A DNA stretch of 62,547 nucleotides from Phycisphaerae bacterium (lineage in GTDB: Bacteria > Planctomycetota > Phycisphaerae > Sedimentisphaerales > Anaerohalosphaeraceae): assembly GCA_012729675.1 (NCBI GenBank), contig JAAYCR010000096.1, positions 1 to 62,547 on the forward strand. Reading direction: 5' to 3'. This document shows, in pieces, positions 29,328-45,306 of this stretch. Position 1 is the first letter of the stretch, and each line of letters opens with the position of its first letter. A program made the translations under genes and the position numbers. The notes beneath the pieces are model-generated. The model was not told the DNA's origin, did no database searches, and was given only the letters and a program-made list of their open reading frames with translations.

Positions 29328-30497
29328 TTATTGATTTCGAATGTCCTCAATCAGGTCGTTGACAAGGGCGTTCAGTTCAGGCACTGCCCAGCCAGCGACA
29401 TAATCGCGAGGCCATCCACGGCCGCTGGTCTTTTCGGCCGCCGACATGAGAGGTATCAGCGCAAATCGCTCGTAGCCGGAGTCAATGAGGTTGTGTGCGA
29501 TCTGGAACGTCAGAAAAATCACTGTCGCCCTTACATGGCCGAATATACCGGGGCCAAGGCCGTAGATGGTGCCGTCTCTGAGGCCGTCCGTATAAAGTTC
29601 GTTGATCGCGGCGATTTTGTCGCCAAGCGTCAGCTCAGGCTCTTCGGGCCAGACACCTTCGCCGGTCAGCAGGACCTCCACCAGAGGCCGTTCGGGGTCG
29701 TCGCTGAAAATCTGCAAGACCGCCTCATAAGGGCCTTCTTCCAAAGGCGCAAACACCACCTCGATCTCGATGACGCTGTTAGGCTCCATCGTGACAGGCA
29801 GTTGAGTCAGAGGCATAATATCAAAGGCCATCGCTTCATCTTGCAGGAGTTGGAGGGACTGCAGCGCCAGATTGCTGCTGCCGACGTTGGCGACCGTCAC
29901 GAACGCGGTTTGCGTTTGCAGGGCGTCGACTTCAACGTCGCCGAACTCGACAAGGTCGGACGAGACCTCGATTTGAGGCGCCGAATCAACCCAGCCCAGC
30001 TTAACAGTCGTAAAGAAATCGCCTTCCTCAAAACAGGAGACAGGGTACTCAAATGCGGTTCCACTCTCATAGATGCCGCTGAGGACGTTGTCTCTGAGAA
30101 ACAGCTCAGGCGTTCCGGGTTCGACAGGTACCCCATCCATCGCGAAGTCGTTGCCAAAAATGGTGACTTGTGCTTCGGGCAGACCGTTATACGACGTAGT
30201 CACAATGAGGACCGAATCGATTTTGCCGCCGTAGATATTCAGCACGGCGCCGCTCTCGGCGCAGACTTGGCCGGGTTCTGAATAGTAGTCTTTGATCCAG
30301 GCGTTCTCATATAGATTGACGGTCGCGTCGGCCACCCACAGATAGCCGTTGACCTCGCGGTCGATATCGACGACTTTCCCCTCGGTCACGCCGCTATCGT
30401 AATATTCTAAGGCCTGTACCCAACCGACACAGCAGAGCAACAGGCACAGCACCGCGGCTGTCTTACGGCACATTAAGTTGCATCGTTTATTTGTCAT
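29328..30497 (-). CDS. secreted beta-sandwich protein with HYDIN/choice-of-anchor-D-type domain
   Basis: The 389-aa protein has a signal peptide (TAAVLCLLLCCVGWVQA), then a region with VNLYENAWIKDYYSEPG and NIYGGKIDS that recurs in exported planctomycete proteins. A domain near residues 200-300 reads VEFGDVEVDALQTQTAFVTV, then EIEVVFAPLEEGPYEAVLQI and FSDDPERPLVEVLLTGEG, typical of ASH/HYDIN or choice-of-anchor D folds. The C-terminal 90 residues are unassigned. It has no enzyme motif; a cell-surface or binding role is likely. The ATG at 30497 has GGGGG upstream and is preferred over one at 30515. It is divergent from the pseudopilin gene. Confidence 0.75.
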   Translation of the reverse strand: MTNKRCNLMCRKTAAVLCLLLCCVGWVQALEYYDSGVTEGKVVDIDREVNGYLWVADATVNLYENAWIKDYYSEPGQVCAESGAVLNIYGGKIDSVLIVTTSYNGLPEAQVTIFGNDFAMDGVPVEPGTPELFLRDNVLSGIYESGTAFEYPVSCFEEGDFFTTVKLGWVDSAPQIEVSSDLVEFGDVEVDALQTQTAFVTVANVGSSNLALQSLQLLQDEAMAFDIMPLTQLPVTMEPNSVIEIEVVFAPLEEGPYEAVLQIFSDDPERPLVEVLLTGEGVWPEEPELTLGDKIAAINELYTDGLRDGTIYGLGPGIFGHVRATVIFLTFQIAHNLIDSGYERFALIPLMSAAEKTSGRGWPRDYVAGWAVPELNALVNDLIEDIRNQ

Positions 30498-30632
30498 CAG
30501 AACCCCCATATTCATATTTGTTGTTTCTGTTTAGCTATTTACACCAAATTTCTTAATAATATCTTAATAAACAATAACACATAAGTGCCAAAAATGCAAA
30601 TTCACGACTGACAGTGCCATTATGGCCGATTA

Positions 30633-30649: not shown

Positions 30650-30745
30650 ATACAATGCAAGGGTCGCCAATAGATTTGGAAAAATGTCGTAATCAGTGCC
30701 TGTACAAAAACCGAAAATAATAAATAAATGTTATATTTTAAAACG

Positions 30746-31246
30746 ATGAAACGCGGTTTTACTCTAATCGAGCTGATGATTGTGGTTTCCATTCTTGGAA
30801 TCCTGGCAGCGATCGTGTTGCCCCACTTTCAGAGTCACCAGCAGCAGGCGCGGCAGGCCGCGGCCAAAGACACCCTGCGCTCCGCTAGGGGGCAGATTCA
30901 ACTGTATAAGCTCGAACACAACGGCCTGGCGCCAGGCTTTAGAGGCACGACGCCCATTGACGCGGCCGTGACGCTGGTCAACCAGTTTGTCGGCACCACA
31001 AGGCTTGATGGTATGGCCAGCCCCTCCAGAACCCCCTCCGCAGGGTATCCCTTCGGCCCTTATCTGGATCGGATGCCCGTCAACCCCTTTAACGGGTTGT
31101 CCACCGTCAAATATGTCGCCGCCGCCACCGAATTTTCCGCCGCCGCCGATAACGCAACCGGATGGCTTTATAAACGCGAAACGGGGGATTTTCGACTGAA
31201 CAAAAGGGACAACGACCCCGAAGGCGTCGCGTATGTGGACTATTGA
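30746..31246 (+). CDS. type II secretion/type IV pilin-like pseudopilin (prepilin)
   Basis: The 166-aa protein has a class III signal cleaved between G and F in KRGFTLIELMIVVSILGILA, the standard prepilin peptidase site with Glu at +5, followed by a long hydrophobic helix and a small soluble head. The head has GFRGTTPIDAAV and TGWLYKRETGDFRLNKRDND, resembling GspG-type major pseudopilins. It would be assembled in the inner membrane by a type II secretion or pilus machine. No assembly ATPase or platform gene is nearby. The earlier ATG at 30728 is less likely because the prepilin leader would be longer. Confidence 0.85.
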   Translation: MKRGFTLIELMIVVSILGILAAIVLPHFQSHQQQARQAAAKDTLRSARGQIQLYKLEHNGLAPGFRGTTPIDAAVTLVNQFVGTTRLDGMASPSRTPSAGYPFGPYLDRMPVNPFNGLSTVKYVAAATEFSAAADNATGWLYKRETGDFRLNKRDNDPEGVAYVDY

Positions 31247-33304: not shown

Positions 33305-33958
33305 TTACCGAGTCGGGTCGCTGACGGACTGCCGCATCGCACGGCGGAGGGCGTGGACGCCGGAGAGGATGGTCATCAGGACCATCAGGAAATACGTCAC
33401 CAAGGTAAACCAGTCGCCCCATTCGCGCGAGACGAACGCCCAGCCGATGAGGACGGTGCCGATGCCGAAGGATTGGAGAAACATCTTGATCTTGCCATAG
33501 ACGACCGCGCCGAAATTGACGCCGCGTGCCTCGGCGATTTGCCGCAGTGTCTGGACGACGATCTCGCGGGCAAAGAGGATGACGGCTGTGCCCCAGCGGA
33601 TCAGGTGCAGCGTGATGTCCGACCAGCCGAAATTGGCCAGCCGGGGTTGGGCGACGAGAGCAAAGCAGAAAAACGCCCCGCAGACGAGAATTTTGTCGGC
33701 CAGCGGATCGACCGTGCGGCCGAACTGACTGGTGACGTCGAATTTCCGTGCGAGGTGCCCATCGACAATATCCGTCAGCCCCGCCACGACAAACAGCACA
33801 AACGCGGCCGTCAAAAAACCTGCGGGCTTGTCCTGTCCCGTCCGAGGCGTATACAGAACCATCCCCAGAAAGATCAGCGTCAGCACCAGCCTGCCGACCG
33901 TCAGGGCGTTCGGAATATGCCGAATAATTCCTTTATTGGGCTTTTTATCCATAACCAT
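33305..33958 (-). CDS. pgsA: CDP-diacylglycerol--glycerol-3-phosphate 3-phosphatidyltransferase
   Basis: PgsA makes phosphatidylglycerophosphate, the first step to phosphatidylglycerol. The 217-aa protein is mostly membrane helices and carries the CDP-alcohol phosphatidyltransferase signature with all acidic residues: DIVDGHLARKFDVTSQFG followed by RTVDPLADK. The N-terminal phrase IPNALTVGRLVLTLIFL is typical. It follows rimO by 41 bp on the same strand; rimO-pgsA is a known neighbour pair in other bacteria. The name PgsA is chosen over PssA because of the overall match and the neighbour. Confidence 0.9.
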   Translation of the reverse strand: MVMDKKPNKGIIRHIPNALTVGRLVLTLIFLGMVLYTPRTGQDKPAGFLTAAFVLFVVAGLTDIVDGHLARKFDVTSQFGRTVDPLADKILVCGAFFCFALVAQPRLANFGWSDITLHLIRWGTAVILFAREIVVQTLRQIAEARGVNFGAVVYGKIKMFLQSFGIGTVLIGWAFVSREWGDWFTLVTYFLMVLMTILSGVHALRRAMRQSVSDPTR

Positions 33959-33999: not shown

Positions 34000-35337
34000 T
34001 CATCTTGTTTCCACTTCAAAATCGTATCCGTCCCGTCCGGTGACGCGGGCGTTGATGAATGTTCCGGGTGGGGCGTCACAAGGGGCGAGCAGGCATACCG
34101 AGTCGATATGGGGGGCCTGGCCATAGTGGCGGCCGACAGCGCCGTCCGAGTCATTGTCATCGACCAGCACCGTCAGTTCCTTGCCCTTCCAGTTGTCCAT
34201 CTTGGCGAATACGATTTCCTGCTGGGTCTGCATCAGGCGGTCGGCGCGCTTGTGTTTGACCTTGTCGGGCAGTTGGTCGGCCAGCTCGGCTGCGGGCGTT
34301 CCCGGCTCGGCAAAAAACGGAAAACACCCCAGCGCGTCAAACTGTGCCCAGCGGACAAATTCCAAAAGCTCTTCGAACTCGGCCTCCGTTTCGCCGGGGT
34401 AGCCGACGATCATCGTCGTCCGCAGGACAACATCGGGCATTCGCGTCCGCAGCCGCTCGATCAGATGCAGGTTCTTTTCCTTGGTGTCCGCCCGCCGCAT
34501 ACATTTGAGGATGCGATTATTGATGTGCTGGACGGGGATATCGGCATAATGCACCACCTTGTCGCTTTTGGCCATCGCCTCCAGCAGGGCGTCATCGACG
34601 CCGGACGGGTACAGGTACATCAGGCGAATCCATCGCAGCGATTCGAGCTTTTCCATCTCGCCAATCAGTTTGACCAGTCCGTTTTCGAGCTTGAGGTCGC
34701 GGCCGTAATAGTTGCTGTCCTGGGCGATGAGGCTCAGTTCGACGGCCCCGTTTTCGACCAACTCGCGGGCCTCATCCAGTACCATCTCCATCGGTTTACT
34801 GCGAAACCGGCCGCGAATGGAGGGAATCGTGCAGAACGAGCACTTCCGGTCGCAACCCTCGCTGATGCGCAGGTATGCCCAGTGCGCCGGCGTGATGAGC
34901 AATCGCCCGCGGTCGTCGTGAATTTCAGGGACCGATGCCTCCCGTCTCAAGGATCGCCCTTCGAGACAAGCCGCGACAATCTCTGCGATGCGATCCCGCT
35001 GATCCAGCCCGACAATCGCGTCAATCCCTTTGACTTCCTGCCGCAGCGCCTCGCCCATCCGCTCGGACAGACACCCGGCGACGACAACTTTCCGGATATG
35101 GCCTCGCCTTTTCTGATTCACGGCCTGCCGGATCGCGCTAATCGCCTCCGCCTTGGCTGGGGCGATGAACCCGCAGGTATTGATGACCACCACGTCCGCC
35201 CGGTCGGGGTCGCCGCTGAGGACAAACCCCGCCTGCCCGATCTGCGCCAGCATGACCTCGCTGTCCACGATGTTTTTAGGACATCCAAGGGCGACAAAGC
35301 CGACAGTGGTAACTTGATTTTGAATCTTTTTTTTCAT
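34000..35337 (-). CDS. rimO: ribosomal protein S12 methylthiotransferase RimO
   Basis: RimO is a radical-SAM enzyme that methylthiolates an Asp of ribosomal protein S12. The 445-aa product has the N-terminal MTTase domain with its three cluster cysteines (GCPKNIVDSE, NTCGFI, VAGCLSER), the radical-SAM CxxxCxxC (EGCDRKCSFCTIPS) and a C-terminal TRAM domain (ELTVLVDDNDSDG, ARVTGRDGYDFEVE). The GCPKN and domain order fit RimO better than MiaB. The ATG at 35337 is where family similarity begins; an earlier in-frame ATG at 35475 would add an unrelated 46 residues. Confidence 0.93.
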   Translation of the reverse strand: MKKKIQNQVTTVGFVALGCPKNIVDSEVMLAQIGQAGFVLSGDPDRADVVVINTCGFIAPAKAEAISAIRQAVNQKRRGHIRKVVVAGCLSERMGEALRQEVKGIDAIVGLDQRDRIAEIVAACLEGRSLRREASVPEIHDDRGRLLITPAHWAYLRISEGCDRKCSFCTIPSIRGRFRSKPMEMVLDEARELVENGAVELSLIAQDSNYYGRDLKLENGLVKLIGEMEKLESLRWIRLMYLYPSGVDDALLEAMAKSDKVVHYADIPVQHINNRILKCMRRADTKEKNLHLIERLRTRMPDVVLRTTMIVGYPGETEAEFEELLEFVRWAQFDALGCFPFFAEPGTPAAELADQLPDKVKHKRADRLMQTQQEIVFAKMDNWKGKELTVLVDDNDSDGAVGRHYGQAPHIDSVCLLAPCDAPPGTFINARVTGRDGYDFEVETR

Positions 35338-35652
35338 AAATATGTGGTTTCTTTCCTTGCTGAACCGCCGAAATCTTATCAACAAAACGTCCTGATTGCC
35401 AGCATTTCCCGAAAACACACACTTTCTCTCAATACAGGCAATAAACCCCTCTTTACAAGCGTCCTGAATGAACATAGGATAGGTCTGTCGTCTTTGTTCA
35501 AAATGGACTGACGGGATGCGTTTTACTACAGAAAAAACGTATTCTGTGCCGATAGGAAAAGGTGTTCGGGATAGAAGTTCAACTACTAATACGGATTTTG
35601 GATGCAGTTTCTCTTTAGCAGCTTTGCCAACGTTAGAATCAGCCGACTTTGT

Positions 35653-37329
35653 ATGCGCATCGGGGTTTACGCCGGTCTGTGCATCGCGATGTCCGGCTGC
35701 GGGGATTTTTTAGCCAAGAAATCCACTGAGATCGAATCCAAAGCGGTTATCCGCGATATTGCCCGTGTGCGCGAGAACCCCCATATCTATAACGCGCCTC
35801 CGGAGATGTATCGGTCGGCTCCGCAACGGCTTGCGCTGGGCGACGGAGTGCGGATGTTTTATTTCACCAAGCATCACCCGGCCAAGGATATTGCCGATGA
35901 GCTCAAAAAGCTGGGCTTTAAGGTCAGCCAGAACTCCAGCACGAATCAGGTTGTCATTCACGCCGCAGATGAGGACGAATGTGACATCATCGAAGAGTAT
36001 TTGCTGCGCACGGATGTTCCGCCAATCCAGGTGCACATCGACTGTATTATTCTGGAACGCTTTGGTGATGTGACCAAGGACTGGGAAACGACGATTCTGA
36101 TCGAAAACCTCTTTGGTGAACAGATCACGCTCGGCGAAGGCAAGTATCCCGGGGCGGCATTTCCTGGTGCCGCTCTGCGTGAGGCCCGGCGCAGCGAATT
36201 TGGGCTGGATTTTGGTTTTTGGAAGAATGAAGGGATTCCGGGGCATCAGGTGCGAGTGATTGTGGATATCCTGGAATCCCGCGGGTATCTGAAAATCCTG
36301 ATGAACCCGACCTTGGAAACCGTCAATGGCAAGGCGGCGACCGTCCAGATACGCGACCGGGCGCCGATTGAAAAGGTCGTTACTAATAAAAACCAAACGT
36401 ACAGTGTTGTGGATTATCAGTGGGTCACCGATACGGTTACGGTAACGCCGTTTGTCTATGCCGACGGCTCGGTCGGGCTGAAAACATCGATTGTGATGGG
36501 GTCGCAGTCCAAGCCGGAAGGTGTTGTACAAAAGCCGATCATCACCGAGCGGTCGATTGATGTGGCCGAAAACCGGATTGAGCCGGGCATGAGCCTGATT
36601 ATCGGCGGGATGCGTAAAAGCGAAAATCGCTCGGTTGTCCGCGGAGTGCCGTTTTTCAAAGATCTGCCGCTGATCGGCGTCCTGTTTTCCAGCAAGGACT
36701 TTGAAGAAAATGCCAACGAAACTGTGTTTATCCTGACGCCCAGCATCTCGTCCGGCGGTGTCCATTATACCGAAATGGCCGAGATGATCCGCGAAAAATA
36801 TCGCACGCCCGACCAAGATACACTATTGGACGATTTAGTCGCCGACCCGCTGGCCGGCGATGTCTATACACAGTACGTCGAACAAAAAGGTGATCAAGCG
36901 CGAGCGGATACGGTACGCTTCCAACGCGAGGCCCAGCGGGCGGACTTTGAGGCACAGGAAGCACGTCTGCGGGCTGAACGGATCATGCTTGAAATGCAGG
37001 CGATGCGTGTCCGAGGCGAGCAGGCCGTTGCGCAGACCAAGGCCGACCAGGCGCGGGCACAGGCCGCCGCCAAAGAGGCGCAGGCCCAACAGGCCCTGAT
37101 CTCGCAGACTCAGGAAGACATTGAAAAGGCCCAAGCAGAGGCCGCTGCCGCGCGGGCCGAGGCACAAGCCGCTCAAGACGAACTGGATGTCGCACGGCAA
37201 AAAACACAGGCCATCGAACAGGAGGCCCAAACGATCAAGGCGCAGCAGGACGCCCTTGAGGCGGAGCTCCAAAACCTACGACAAATAGAGGAACCCCAAG
37301 ATACGCCTCCGGCGTCTGTAGAGCAATGA
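35653..37329 (+). CDS. secretin-domain lipoprotein with coiled-coil tail, first of a pair
   Basis: The 558-aa protein (start uncertain; 35602 is the alternative) has a lipoprotein signal ending AMSGC followed by GDF. A single secretin-N-like domain lies near residues 65-130 (FYFTKHHPAKDIADELKKLG). The secretin domain spans about 130-380: VTVTPFVYADGSVGLKTSI, LIIGGMRKSENRSVVRGVPF then FKDLPLIGVLF and TVFILTPSIS. From about residue 405 onward it is an Ala/Gln/Glu-rich coiled coil (ARADTVRFQREAQRADFEAQ and more). Secretins form outer-membrane rings in type II, type III and pilus systems. It overlaps the next gene by 4 bp. Confidence 0.82.
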   Translation: MRIGVYAGLCIAMSGCGDFLAKKSTEIESKAVIRDIARVRENPHIYNAPPEMYRSAPQRLALGDGVRMFYFTKHHPAKDIADELKKLGFKVSQNSSTNQVVIHAADEDECDIIEEYLLRTDVPPIQVHIDCIILERFGDVTKDWETTILIENLFGEQITLGEGKYPGAAFPGAALREARRSEFGLDFGFWKNEGIPGHQVRVIVDILESRGYLKILMNPTLETVNGKAATVQIRDRAPIEKVVTNKNQTYSVVDYQWVTDTVTVTPFVYADGSVGLKTSIVMGSQSKPEGVVQKPIITERSIDVAENRIEPGMSLIIGGMRKSENRSVVRGVPFFKDLPLIGVLFSSKDFEENANETVFILTPSISSGGVHYTEMAEMIREKYRTPDQDTLLDDLVADPLAGDVYTQYVEQKGDQARADTVRFQREAQRADFEAQEARLRAERIMLEMQAMRVRGEQAVAQTKADQARAQAAAKEAQAQQALISQTQEDIEKAQAEAAAARAEAQAAQDELDVARQKTQAIEQEAQTIKAQQDALEAELQNLRQIEEPQDTPPASVEQ

Positions 37330-39002
37330 ACGGAATGTTAGACAAACAATTTGGAGTGCGTAATACGTTGGCGGCAGCCGCGTTGCCGGCGTTGCTTATG
37401 CTGGCCGGGTGTGGGGACTTTTTTGCACGACAACCAACGGAAATTCAGTCGATGGCGATCCTCGAAGAGCTTGGGCAGGTTCGCGAAAGCCCTCACGTTA
37501 ACAATACGTTACCGGAAATCTATCGCCAGCCGCCATCCCGTCTTGCCATTAAAGACGGCACCAAATTGTTCTATTATACCAAGCATCACCCTGCCGGCCA
37601 ACTGGCGGCACTGGTCAAAGAACAACTGGGCGTCGATGCGTCCGTTAACGCTGCGACCAATCAGTTGGTGCTGTTCTGTAAGGACAATCAGGAAGCGGAT
37701 TCAGTGGAACACTACCTGCTGTATCTCGATGTACCCCCGGTACAGGTAAACGTGGATTGCCTGATTTTGGAACGCTTCGGCGACATTACAATGGACTGGG
37801 AATCGTCCATTATGATTCAAAACTTTCTCGGCGAAGAGATCACAATGGGCGAAGGACGCGGGACATTTAATAAACAGGGGCAATTGACCAATCTTGATCC
37901 GGCGTTTCCCGGTGCGGCAATCCGCGAGACCGAACGCGCAAAATTCGGAATGGATTTTGGCTACTGGCAAAACAAAGGCGTCCCGGGCCATCAGATTCGT
38001 GCGGTGGTCGATGTGCTGATCTCGCACGGCTACCTCAAAATCCTGCTCAATCCGACGCTGGAAACGGTCAACGGCCAGAAAGCAACCGTTACGATCAAGG
38101 ATTTCGCTCCCACGCAAAAGGTCGAGCTTGGCCGGGGCAGCGATATCGAGGTTTACAACATCACAGAATATATCTGGGTTGAAAACACCCTGACCGTGAC
38201 GCCGTATGTCTATTCGGACGGTTCCATTGGTCTGACCACCGATATCAAAATCGGCTCGCGTTCCAAGCCCGAAGGTGTTGTCCAGCGGGCGATCATCACC
38301 GAGCGCTCAATCAAAGTGGCCGAGAATCGCGTCTTGCCCGGCGAGAGCCTGATCATCGGCGGGATGCGCAAAAGCGAAAAACGCTCGGTCATCCGCGGGG
38401 TTCCATTTTTTAAGGACCTGCCGCTGGTGGGGTTGTTGTTTTCCAGCAAAGACTTTGAAGAGAAGGGCACCGAGATCATCTATATCCTTACGCCCAGTAT
38501 TTCCTCCGGTGGTCAGGAGCACAGCGGCGTCGTTGAGGATATTCGCGATAAGCACGCGACTCCGAAGTACGAGACCAGCATAAAACAGGTGTTGACCGAG
38601 CCGTTCGATTCCAGCATCTATGGGACGATGGTCGAACAGCAAGCCGCCCAGGCGGAATTGGACAGGTTGCAGGCGGAACTGAATCGTGAAGAAGCGATCA
38701 CGCGGGCACAAACAGAAAAAGGCCGAGCCGACCGGATTGCTGCCGAGGCCGAAAAGCTTCGCGAAAAAACGGATGCCTTGACGGCACAGGCACAGGCCGC
38801 CGCCGATGAAGCCGCTGCTGCCGAAGCCCAAGCCGCGGCTGAACGCCAGCGGGTCCAGGAACTTCAACAGCTGCGAGATGAAGTGCAGGCTCAGAAACAA
38901 GAAGACCCCGGACAAGGCGAATCGGAAACGCCGCGTGATAATGCAACCCCTCCGGACGACGGGCCGGATGCCCCGAAAGGGCTTGAACCGGACGAAAGCT
39001 GA
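37326..39002 (+). CDS. secretin-domain lipoprotein with coiled-coil tail, second of a pair
   Basis: The 558-aa product is a paralogue of the preceding protein along its length. It has a lipobox (LLMLAGCGDFF), the same N domain (YYTKHHPAGQLAALVKEQLG), the secretin core (TLTVTPYVYSDGSIGLTTDI, SLIIGGMRKSEKRSVIRGVP, FKDLPLVGLLFSSKDFEE, YILTPSISSGG) and, from about residue 434, a coiled coil (EQQAAQAELDRLQAELNREE). The last 50 residues are rich in Pro, Asp and Glu and probably disordered. Its ATG overlaps the TGA of the first gene, so equal amounts may be made. No type II or III machine genes are nearby. Two lipoprotein secretins with tails could form a mixed ring; this is inference. Confidence 0.82.
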   Translation: MNGMLDKQFGVRNTLAAAALPALLMLAGCGDFFARQPTEIQSMAILEELGQVRESPHVNNTLPEIYRQPPSRLAIKDGTKLFYYTKHHPAGQLAALVKEQLGVDASVNAATNQLVLFCKDNQEADSVEHYLLYLDVPPVQVNVDCLILERFGDITMDWESSIMIQNFLGEEITMGEGRGTFNKQGQLTNLDPAFPGAAIRETERAKFGMDFGYWQNKGVPGHQIRAVVDVLISHGYLKILLNPTLETVNGQKATVTIKDFAPTQKVELGRGSDIEVYNITEYIWVENTLTVTPYVYSDGSIGLTTDIKIGSRSKPEGVVQRAIITERSIKVAENRVLPGESLIIGGMRKSEKRSVIRGVPFFKDLPLVGLLFSSKDFEEKGTEIIYILTPSISSGGQEHSGVVEDIRDKHATPKYETSIKQVLTEPFDSSIYGTMVEQQAAQAELDRLQAELNREEAITRAQTEKGRADRIAAEAEKLREKTDALTAQAQAAADEAAAAEAQAAAERQRVQELQQLRDEVQAQKQEDPGQGESETPRDNATPPDDGPDAPKGLEPDES

Positions 39003-43450: not shown

Positions 43451-43575
43451 GAAGAACGTTTTGGGACAATAATCGCCAAAACGGTAAAATTACCCTGTAG
43501 TGCTATTGAATTATGACCCCGTTACCCTGTATAATAGAAGAAGTTGTTAAAGAGGAGATTAGTAGGTTGTTTTAT

Positions 43576-45306
43576 ATGTTTTTGAAAAAAGTCAGCGTCC
43601 TGTCAGTCGTTCTGGCCGTTATGACGATGATGGTCTATGCCGATGGTGAGGCATTGCCGTTGCCGGCGGAACCGGCGGCACTGGAGGCGGCGGGCATTCG
43701 CGCCCTTCAGCAGACTTGGCCCGAACTGGACGGTTCCGGCGTGACCATTGCGGCGGTGTGCCGAAGTATGACTTATTTCAATAATTTGCCGCAAAATGAT
43801 TATCGCTTCAATATGCACCATTACAGCCTCCGCGACGCGGACGTGGTGTTTGAAGACTATTCCGACGGCAAACACGGCATTTCGCCGCACTCCACGGCTG
43901 TTGCCGGAGTTCTTATCGGACTTGACCCTCTCGGTAAGCTGACTGACGGAACAGCATTTGACTACCGCGGCGTTAGCCCGCTTGCGTCGTTGGAGGTGTT
44001 CGAGTTTTGGCGTTTCACGGCCTTGTGGCTGTTCGGCCAAAAACCCATCGTTGCCGATGTCATTACGCTGAGTTTGGGCGATATTTATGAGGCTTGGTGG
44101 ACGCGAGCCATCGAACAGCTTGCCGCCGAGAACGGCACGGTGGTTGTGGCCGCGATCGGTAACGGTCTGGCCGCCAGAGACACCACCCTCTATCCGGCCG
44201 CCGGGGCCAATGTGATCGGCGTCGGCGTGATCGGATCAGTGGTTGATGCGGACGGCAACACCGTCTTGGGCGATTTTGCCGTGCCGACTGCACAGCTTTC
44301 CAGTCAAGGGCCGACGGACGACCTGCGATCCAAACCCGATTTGGTGGCTCCGGGAACGGCGATTATTCCCGACGCCTACACCGAAAACGGCTATTCCGTT
44401 CTGACCAACGCCTCCAGCCTGGCCGCGCCCATTACAGCCGGGACCGCCGCTTTGTTGTTGCAGAAAGCCGCACAGGACGAGGTCCTGCCGTCGGCGATGG
44501 CCGATGCGCCGATCAACTGCATCATCAAGGCGGTGCTGATGAACTCGGCCCGAAAGCTGCCCTACTGGCACAAGGGGGATGTTACCGAAGACGACGATCT
44601 CTATCGCCCGCTGGATCGGCTTCAGGGTGCCGGGGCACTGGATGCGGCGGCCGCGATGGCACAACTGACCGCCGGACAGCAGTCGCCGGGTGAGGTGTCG
44701 CCGCTGGGCTGGGACAGCCATGCCATTGAGCCGGCGCAAACGAACTTCTATATCATTGATGCGACGGAAGCCGGCGACAGGCTGACGGCAACGCTGACGT
44801 GGAATCGGCATTATGAAAATCAATATCCTTTCCAACTCAAACCCGAACAAAGCGACCTGCGGCTGGAACTGTGGGCGATTGATCCGAATGCGCCGGACGG
44901 CGTAATTTTGCTGGATGTCAGCGACAGCCCCGTCGATACGGTCGAGCATCTTTGGACGCCGCTATTGGAGGATGTGTCGCACTATATGCTGGCCGTGCGG
45001 TTCAGTCCCGACGCTGTGCAGCCGATGCTGGACGTTGAACGGTTTGCCCTGGCTTGGTCGGTTGGCTCCGATTTATCCGCCGGCCATCCGTTATGGGAAG
45101 ACCTCAACGGCGACGGCCGCATCGACGCCTGGGACAGTTTAATCAAAGCTTTGCTGGAGCAAAACGACGGAACCCTTGAGCCTCTCGACCCCGCTTTCAA
45201 TGAACAGGTGCTGGGGCTTTCCCCCGAACGCGCCGAGTTGCTGACCACTCTCTGGCCGCTGTGGCGGCCGCATCTGGTATCCGAACCCGACCTTTCCATT
45301 GAATAA
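43576..45306 (+). CDS. secreted subtilase-fold (S8) protein, catalytic Asp not conserved
   Basis: The 576-aa protein has a signal peptide (SVLSVVLAVMTMMVYADG) and an S8 fold. The His motif (SPHSTAVAGVLIG), the oxyanion Asn (AAIGNGLAAR) and the Ser motif (NASSLAAPITAGTAALLLQ) are present. In the position of the usual VAVIDTG the sequence reads TIAAVCRSMTYFN, so the catalytic Asp is replaced by Cys. A C-terminal beta domain follows and a single EF-hand-like loop DLNGDGRIDAWDSL near residue 520. It may be inactive or use another residue. The start is uncertain: a TTG at 43567 has a better upstream AGGAG than the ATG used. Confidence 0.78.
   Translation: MFLKKVSVLSVVLAVMTMMVYADGEALPLPAEPAALEAAGIRALQQTWPELDGSGVTIAAVCRSMTYFNNLPQNDYRFNMHHYSLRDADVVFEDYSDGKHGISPHSTAVAGVLIGLDPLGKLTDGTAFDYRGVSPLASLEVFEFWRFTALWLFGQKPIVADVITLSLGDIYEAWWTRAIEQLAAENGTVVVAAIGNGLAARDTTLYPAAGANVIGVGVIGSVVDADGNTVLGDFAVPTAQLSSQGPTDDLRSKPDLVAPGTAIIPDAYTENGYSVLTNASSLAAPITAGTAALLLQKAAQDEVLPSAMADAPINCIIKAVLMNSARKLPYWHKGDVTEDDDLYRPLDRLQGAGALDAAAAMAQLTAGQQSPGEVSPLGWDSHAIEPAQTNFYIIDATEAGDRLTATLTWNRHYENQYPFQLKPEQSDLRLELWAIDPNAPDGVILLDVSDSPVDTVEHLWTPLLEDVSHYMLAVRFSPDAVQPMLDVERFALAWSVGSDLSAGHPLWEDLNGDGRIDAWDSLIKALLEQNDGTLEPLDPAFNEQVLGLSPERAELLTTLWPLWRPHLVSEPDLSIE

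Follow-up and report, generated by a model that had tools for sequence, protein, structure and literature searches.

The window analysed here is a stretch of 62,547 nucleotides from a Phycisphaerae bacterium. Its forward strand carries two adjacent genes, which we call A (35602..37329, with an alternative start at 35653) and B (37326..39002). They overlap in an ATGA, the ATG of B beginning at 37326 and the TGA of A spanning 37327–37329. A sequence-only reading of the region, which took 35653 as the start of A, had described overlapping genes for paralogous lipoproteins, each with one N domain and a full secretin core. This description holds: both reading frames are in place, the two proteins are 52% identical, each contains a lipobox, and a domain search matches PF00263 in both. 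In A and B alike, a signal peptide with a lipobox is followed, in that order, by a short conserved segment, one N domain, the secretin core and a C-terminal tail.

The lipobox cysteines, as read from the sequence, lie at 35698..35700 in A (MSG-C, in agreement with the homologues) and at 37410..37412 in B (LAG-C). Across the family, a lipobox is found by strict pattern in 48 of 61 N-termini and by eye in most of the others, and is lost in a few second copies. Both the alignment and the AF2 models place one N domain only between the lipobox and the core. In A, it occupies 35824..36012, is N3-like (β-α-β-β-α), aligns with the N domains of PilQ and GspD, and is modeled with a block pLDDT of ∼66–82. 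The core of A (36271..36747, residues 224–382) matches PF00263 with an E-value of 4.3e-28 and 98.5 bits, and that of B (38016..38501, residues 231–392) with an E-value of 1.4e-24 and 87 bits, against a curated cut-off of 27.5. Profile positions 2–167 of 169 are covered in both proteins, so that each core is complete, and 49 columns of the core are invariant among 26 sequences. The AF2 models of the barrel, built from three-sequence alignments, are poor (mean pLDDT of 52.6 for A and 41.9 for B); Foldseek matches of the barrel model are consistent with a secretin and add little.

The GspD equivalog profile scores 83.4 bits for A and 81 for B against a cut-off of 351, the PilQ profile 70.7 and 68.2 against 284, and the SctC profile 69 and 54.5 against 238, with no injectisome context. 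The N0-N1-N2-N3 stack of GspD was not found in A or B, which have a single N domain. Judged by sequence, A and B would be classed as secretins that are liposecretin-like in having their own lipobox, and not as GspD, PilQ or SctC. They share with GspD/XcpQ the secretin core, an N3-like domain and a C-terminal region that follows the core at the position of the S-domain. However, they lack the N0–N2 stack and a Gsp operon, have a lipobox of their own, and end in a long coiled coil, whereas the S-domain of GspD/XcpQ has ∼60 residues. The closest solved relatives by profile are PilQ structures (9sh1 and 4av2; E ∼1e-17), although PilQ carries long additions at its N-terminus and stops shortly after the barrel, and no pilMNOP genes lie beside A and B. 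The best single-sequence PDB match for A is pIV of filamentous phage (7ofh; E-value of 1.6e-10), which is likewise short, has few N domains and works with neither a pilus nor a type II platform. To our knowledge, pIV has neither a lipobox nor a coiled-coil tail, and we saw no phage genes in the stretch that was examined here. The liposecretins HxcQ and BfpB are similarly self-lipidated and able to get to the outer membrane unaided by a pilotin; they are parts of complete machines, and we know of no C-terminal coil in either. A tail of this kind might already have been known from a secretion machine, but the open-licence papers that we searched contain no description of the family or of a secretin with such a tail.

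Beyond the end of PF00263, A continues for 193 residues and B for 166, compared to 17–109 in the five other secretins of the genome. The tail of A begins with a conserved linker at the S-domain position (36748..36858; IRxK..P....DP...Y...VE), defined by the homologue alignment and kept in most homologues in the fuller form IRxKH..P....DP(F/L)G..Y...VE..A. The linker is followed by a coiled coil (36859..37284), modeled by AF2 as two helices (residues 403–484 and 487–544; block pLDDT mostly 70–88). The coiled coil of B (38613..38900) is modeled as a single AF2 helix (residues 430–525). Coils of 120–150 residues had been proposed; the limits of the AF2 helices agree with this length for A (∼140) and show it to be overstated for B (∼96). 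The helix of A is broken at residues 485–486, and the coil may fold back instead of extending.

The tail could be measured in 51 homologues and has a median length of 205 residues (range 100–501); the linker leads into an Ala/Glu/Gln/Arg-rich stretch and then a Pro-rich end. The spectral power of the hydrophobic pattern in 50 tails averages 6.1 at a period of 3.5, compared to ∼1 at other periods, which indicates a coiled coil beyond a mere Ala-rich composition. The estimated coil has a median of ∼143 residues, corresponding to ∼21 nm as one helix, with the middle half of the estimates at 20–24.5 nm. The tail is near-universal in the family, one member (G237) being almost without a coil.

The tails had been described as periplasmic or surface-exposed, and two observations bear on this choice. 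The S-domain of solved type II secretins comes after the barrel and packs against its periplasmic side (PMC6532946). In addition, the 501-residue tail of one homologue (G044, L065:1435-4179) ends in a predicted transmembrane helix, a 19-residue hydrophobic segment (Kyte-Doolittle value of 2.57) followed by RKNHY, which has the appearance expected of an inner-membrane anchor. Based on both, we favor the periplasmic half of the earlier description, with tails that would reach towards the inner membrane, A and B themselves having no transmembrane end. If the coils instead projected outward as an adhesin or stalk, one might expect Ala/Gln/Glu-rich coils with disordered ends, as seen here, but this resemblance to surface stalks is a general one with no specific tool support. 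The side of the barrel on which the S-domain lies, together with a terminal hydrophobic helix and trailing basic residues that suit the inner membrane better, makes surface tails highly improbable. A clear C-terminal transmembrane end is present in that one genome only; the other tails have disordered-looking ends with no recognized peptidoglycan-binding domain, and neither such a domain nor an inner-membrane anchor was found at the end of the coil in A or B.

Upstream of the pair, on the reverse strand, are two conserved neighbors, a rimO-like methylthiotransferase gene (34000..35475; Radical_SAM, UPF0004 and TRAM_2) and a pgsA-like CDP-alcohol phosphatidyltransferase gene (33305..33958). The rimO-like gene is divergent from the first secretin gene in 16 of the 21 loci compared, including the window, often with pgsA behind it. 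Many of the 21 loci contain endonuclease-III-like, CPBP-type and DUF2617-like genes downstream (all three named by eye); the window retains the upstream neighbors, and its downstream ones are replaced by NYN_YacP and Ysc84-type genes. Two relatives lack the secretin cassette: in G015 the flanks are intact with a rimO–nth gap of 77 bp, and in G018 this gap is 823 bp. The empty sites imply that the cassette was gained or lost as a unit and, together with its stable place beside rimO/pgsA, that it is self-contained. An origin as a horizontal island or phage was rejected, as the flanks are housekeeping genes retained over much of the order. Elsewhere in the window, 43513-45306 encodes a subtilase (Peptidase_S8) with a C-terminal sequence, DLNGDGRIDAWDSL, that is dockerin-like in look, and 29328-30515 encodes a secreted protein with an ASH/HYDIN-type Ig domain.

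No gsp or pil genes are found among the conserved neighbors in the 21 loci. The only pilus-like gene near the pair is an isolated prepilin-like ORF that contains an N_methyl motif (30728-31246) and is located 4.4 kb upstream; it is not among the conserved neighbors of the pair in relatives. Our analysis therefore confirms the observation of a tailed secretin pair with no secretion or pilus operon beside it, while the interpretation that had been attached to it is, overall, partly supported.

Machines encoded elsewhere in the genome were also considered. Three of the other secretins (at C40, C33 and C91) adjoin their own E/F genes, and two (C13 and C54) are long orphans. Two pilus-type machine loci have no secretin in the stretch examined, one with N/P-like genes, E, T, F and prepilins (G000:C67, L089) and one with E, T, E, F and prepilins (G000:C10, L090). 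Similarly, each of four finished genomes of relatives has at least one T2SSF locus with no secretin within ∼20 kb. Such loci, and the fact that PilQ, GspD and pIV are the nearest solved relatives, are what would be expected if A and B acted in trans, as an accessory or alternative secretin for a type IV pilus or type II platform encoded elsewhere, with the tail docking instead of an N0–N2 stack. This is the main rival to a stand-alone ring, but the distribution of the machines does not follow that of the pair. The C67-type ATPase is missing in the family carriers G035, G040, G042 and G046, and present in G015, G018, G024, G027, G054, G056 and G057, all of which lack the family; obligate use by the C67 machine was rejected on this two-way disagreement. 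The C10-type machine occurs in ∼54 of 59 genomes, its ATPase being equally common with and without the pair, and since it is near-universal no correlation with the pair can be obtained. No machine that we tested tracks the pair. Moreover, A lies far below the cut-offs for GspD (83 versus 351 bits) and PilQ (71 versus 284), and the long orphan secretins would be just as available to such a platform. We consider use in trans, for instance by the C10 type, a serious possibility, if a rather unlikely one.

The family is strongly matched in 41 of 59 close relatives, all in one order, presumably the Sedimentisphaerales to judge by these relatives. It occurs in 27 of 248 genomes of a class-wide sample and in 8 of 392 genomes of a phylum-wide sample, again all in the same order. 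The possibility that the pair is peculiar to this strain is thus ruled out by its occurrence across many relatives, and the predicted conservation of the pair with its tails in planctomycetes is borne out in many genomes, in the same gene order and at the same place. In a scan of 198 class genomes with a profile of 26 sequences, intact members exceeded 550 bits, one partial match within the order scored 207, and the best match outside the order scored 117. The gap between >550 and 117 bits marks a sharp family edge at that sampling. A wider presence in the phylum, for example as the crateriform structures of Planctomycetia, was rejected, with no match at E ≤ 1e-40 beyond the order among the 392 phylum genomes. 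In class members outside the order, secretin cores sit in open frames of ∼1700–4900 residues (for example G201:C1:3607817-3608812, G104:C1:575849-576652 and G173:C79:44469-45335).

The absence of the family from 18 of the 59 relatives implies that it is not essential, which bears on a mainly structural role. In such a role, the barrel would serve as an anchor from which the coils join the outer membrane to the peptidoglycan or inner membrane, and the pore would be secondary or lost. The presence of the coil in nearly all members, its length, which is near the typical width of the periplasm as generally known, and the transmembrane end in G044 are all compatible with a tether. The lack of a recognized peptidoglycan-binding domain argues against it, and the strongly conserved core suggests a working pore. 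Tethering as the main role is, in our judgment, unlikely.

Whether two subunits are needed can be assessed from the relatives. The locus has a single copy in G017, G020, G035, G039, G040 and others. A quick-method tree of 59 sequences, with SH-aLRT support only, resolves the window's wider clade into two supported sets, one of first copies and one of second copies, indicating that the duplication in this clade is old. The pairs of G009, the G011/G012/G013/G016 group, G037 and G042/G046 fall on separate branches, a pattern that points to several duplications independent of one another, or to gene conversion; tandem pairs have probably originated on several occasions. The two-component ring originally envisaged is thus not required in that form, since single-copy loci and the probable repeated origin of pairs mean that a homo-ring must also work. 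In the pairs of G011 and G013, no lipobox precedes the mature start of the second copy, and in that of G016 there is probably none (by eye), a loss that would be expected if this copy is assembled with a lipidated partner. Between the two copies of a pair, tail length correlates only moderately (r of 0.56 for 14 pairs).

Taken as a whole, the reading that we regard as having an even chance of being correct is an order-specific, stand-alone and self-piloting secretin ring with C-terminal coiled coils that span the periplasm. A and B would be exported by Sec and then lipidated at the lipobox cysteine, and their own lipid would carry each protein to the outer membrane, making a separate pilotin unnecessary. 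There, they would assemble into a secretin ring, from A and B where both exist and from one protein alone where the gene is single, with a single N ring under the barrel in place of the usual stack. The tail would exit the barrel at the S-domain position on the periplasmic side, the coil (∼14–21 nm in A and B) would span the periplasm, and its Pro/Glu/Gln-rich end would lie close to the inner membrane or the peptidoglycan. Such a ring would act as a stand-alone gated outer-membrane pore for its presumed cargo, and a palisade of coils would hold it in alignment with the inner envelope, with no inner-membrane pilus or secretion platform. More tentatively, and with considerable doubt, we propose a new class of envelope-spanning pore, in which a ring of secretins, in many cases built from two paralogous subunits, bridges both membranes by its own C-terminal coils and dispenses with an N-domain stack, an inner-membrane platform and a pilus or secretion motor.

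In the usual account, secretins form the outer gate of larger machines and owe their periplasmic reach to N-terminal domains. If the stand-alone ring is correct, a conserved family with C-terminal reach and no tracking machine would mean that a secretin pore can serve on its own. It would also offer a testable route to how planctomycetes link their membranes, and to how these polysaccharide degraders let large molecules through their outer membrane.
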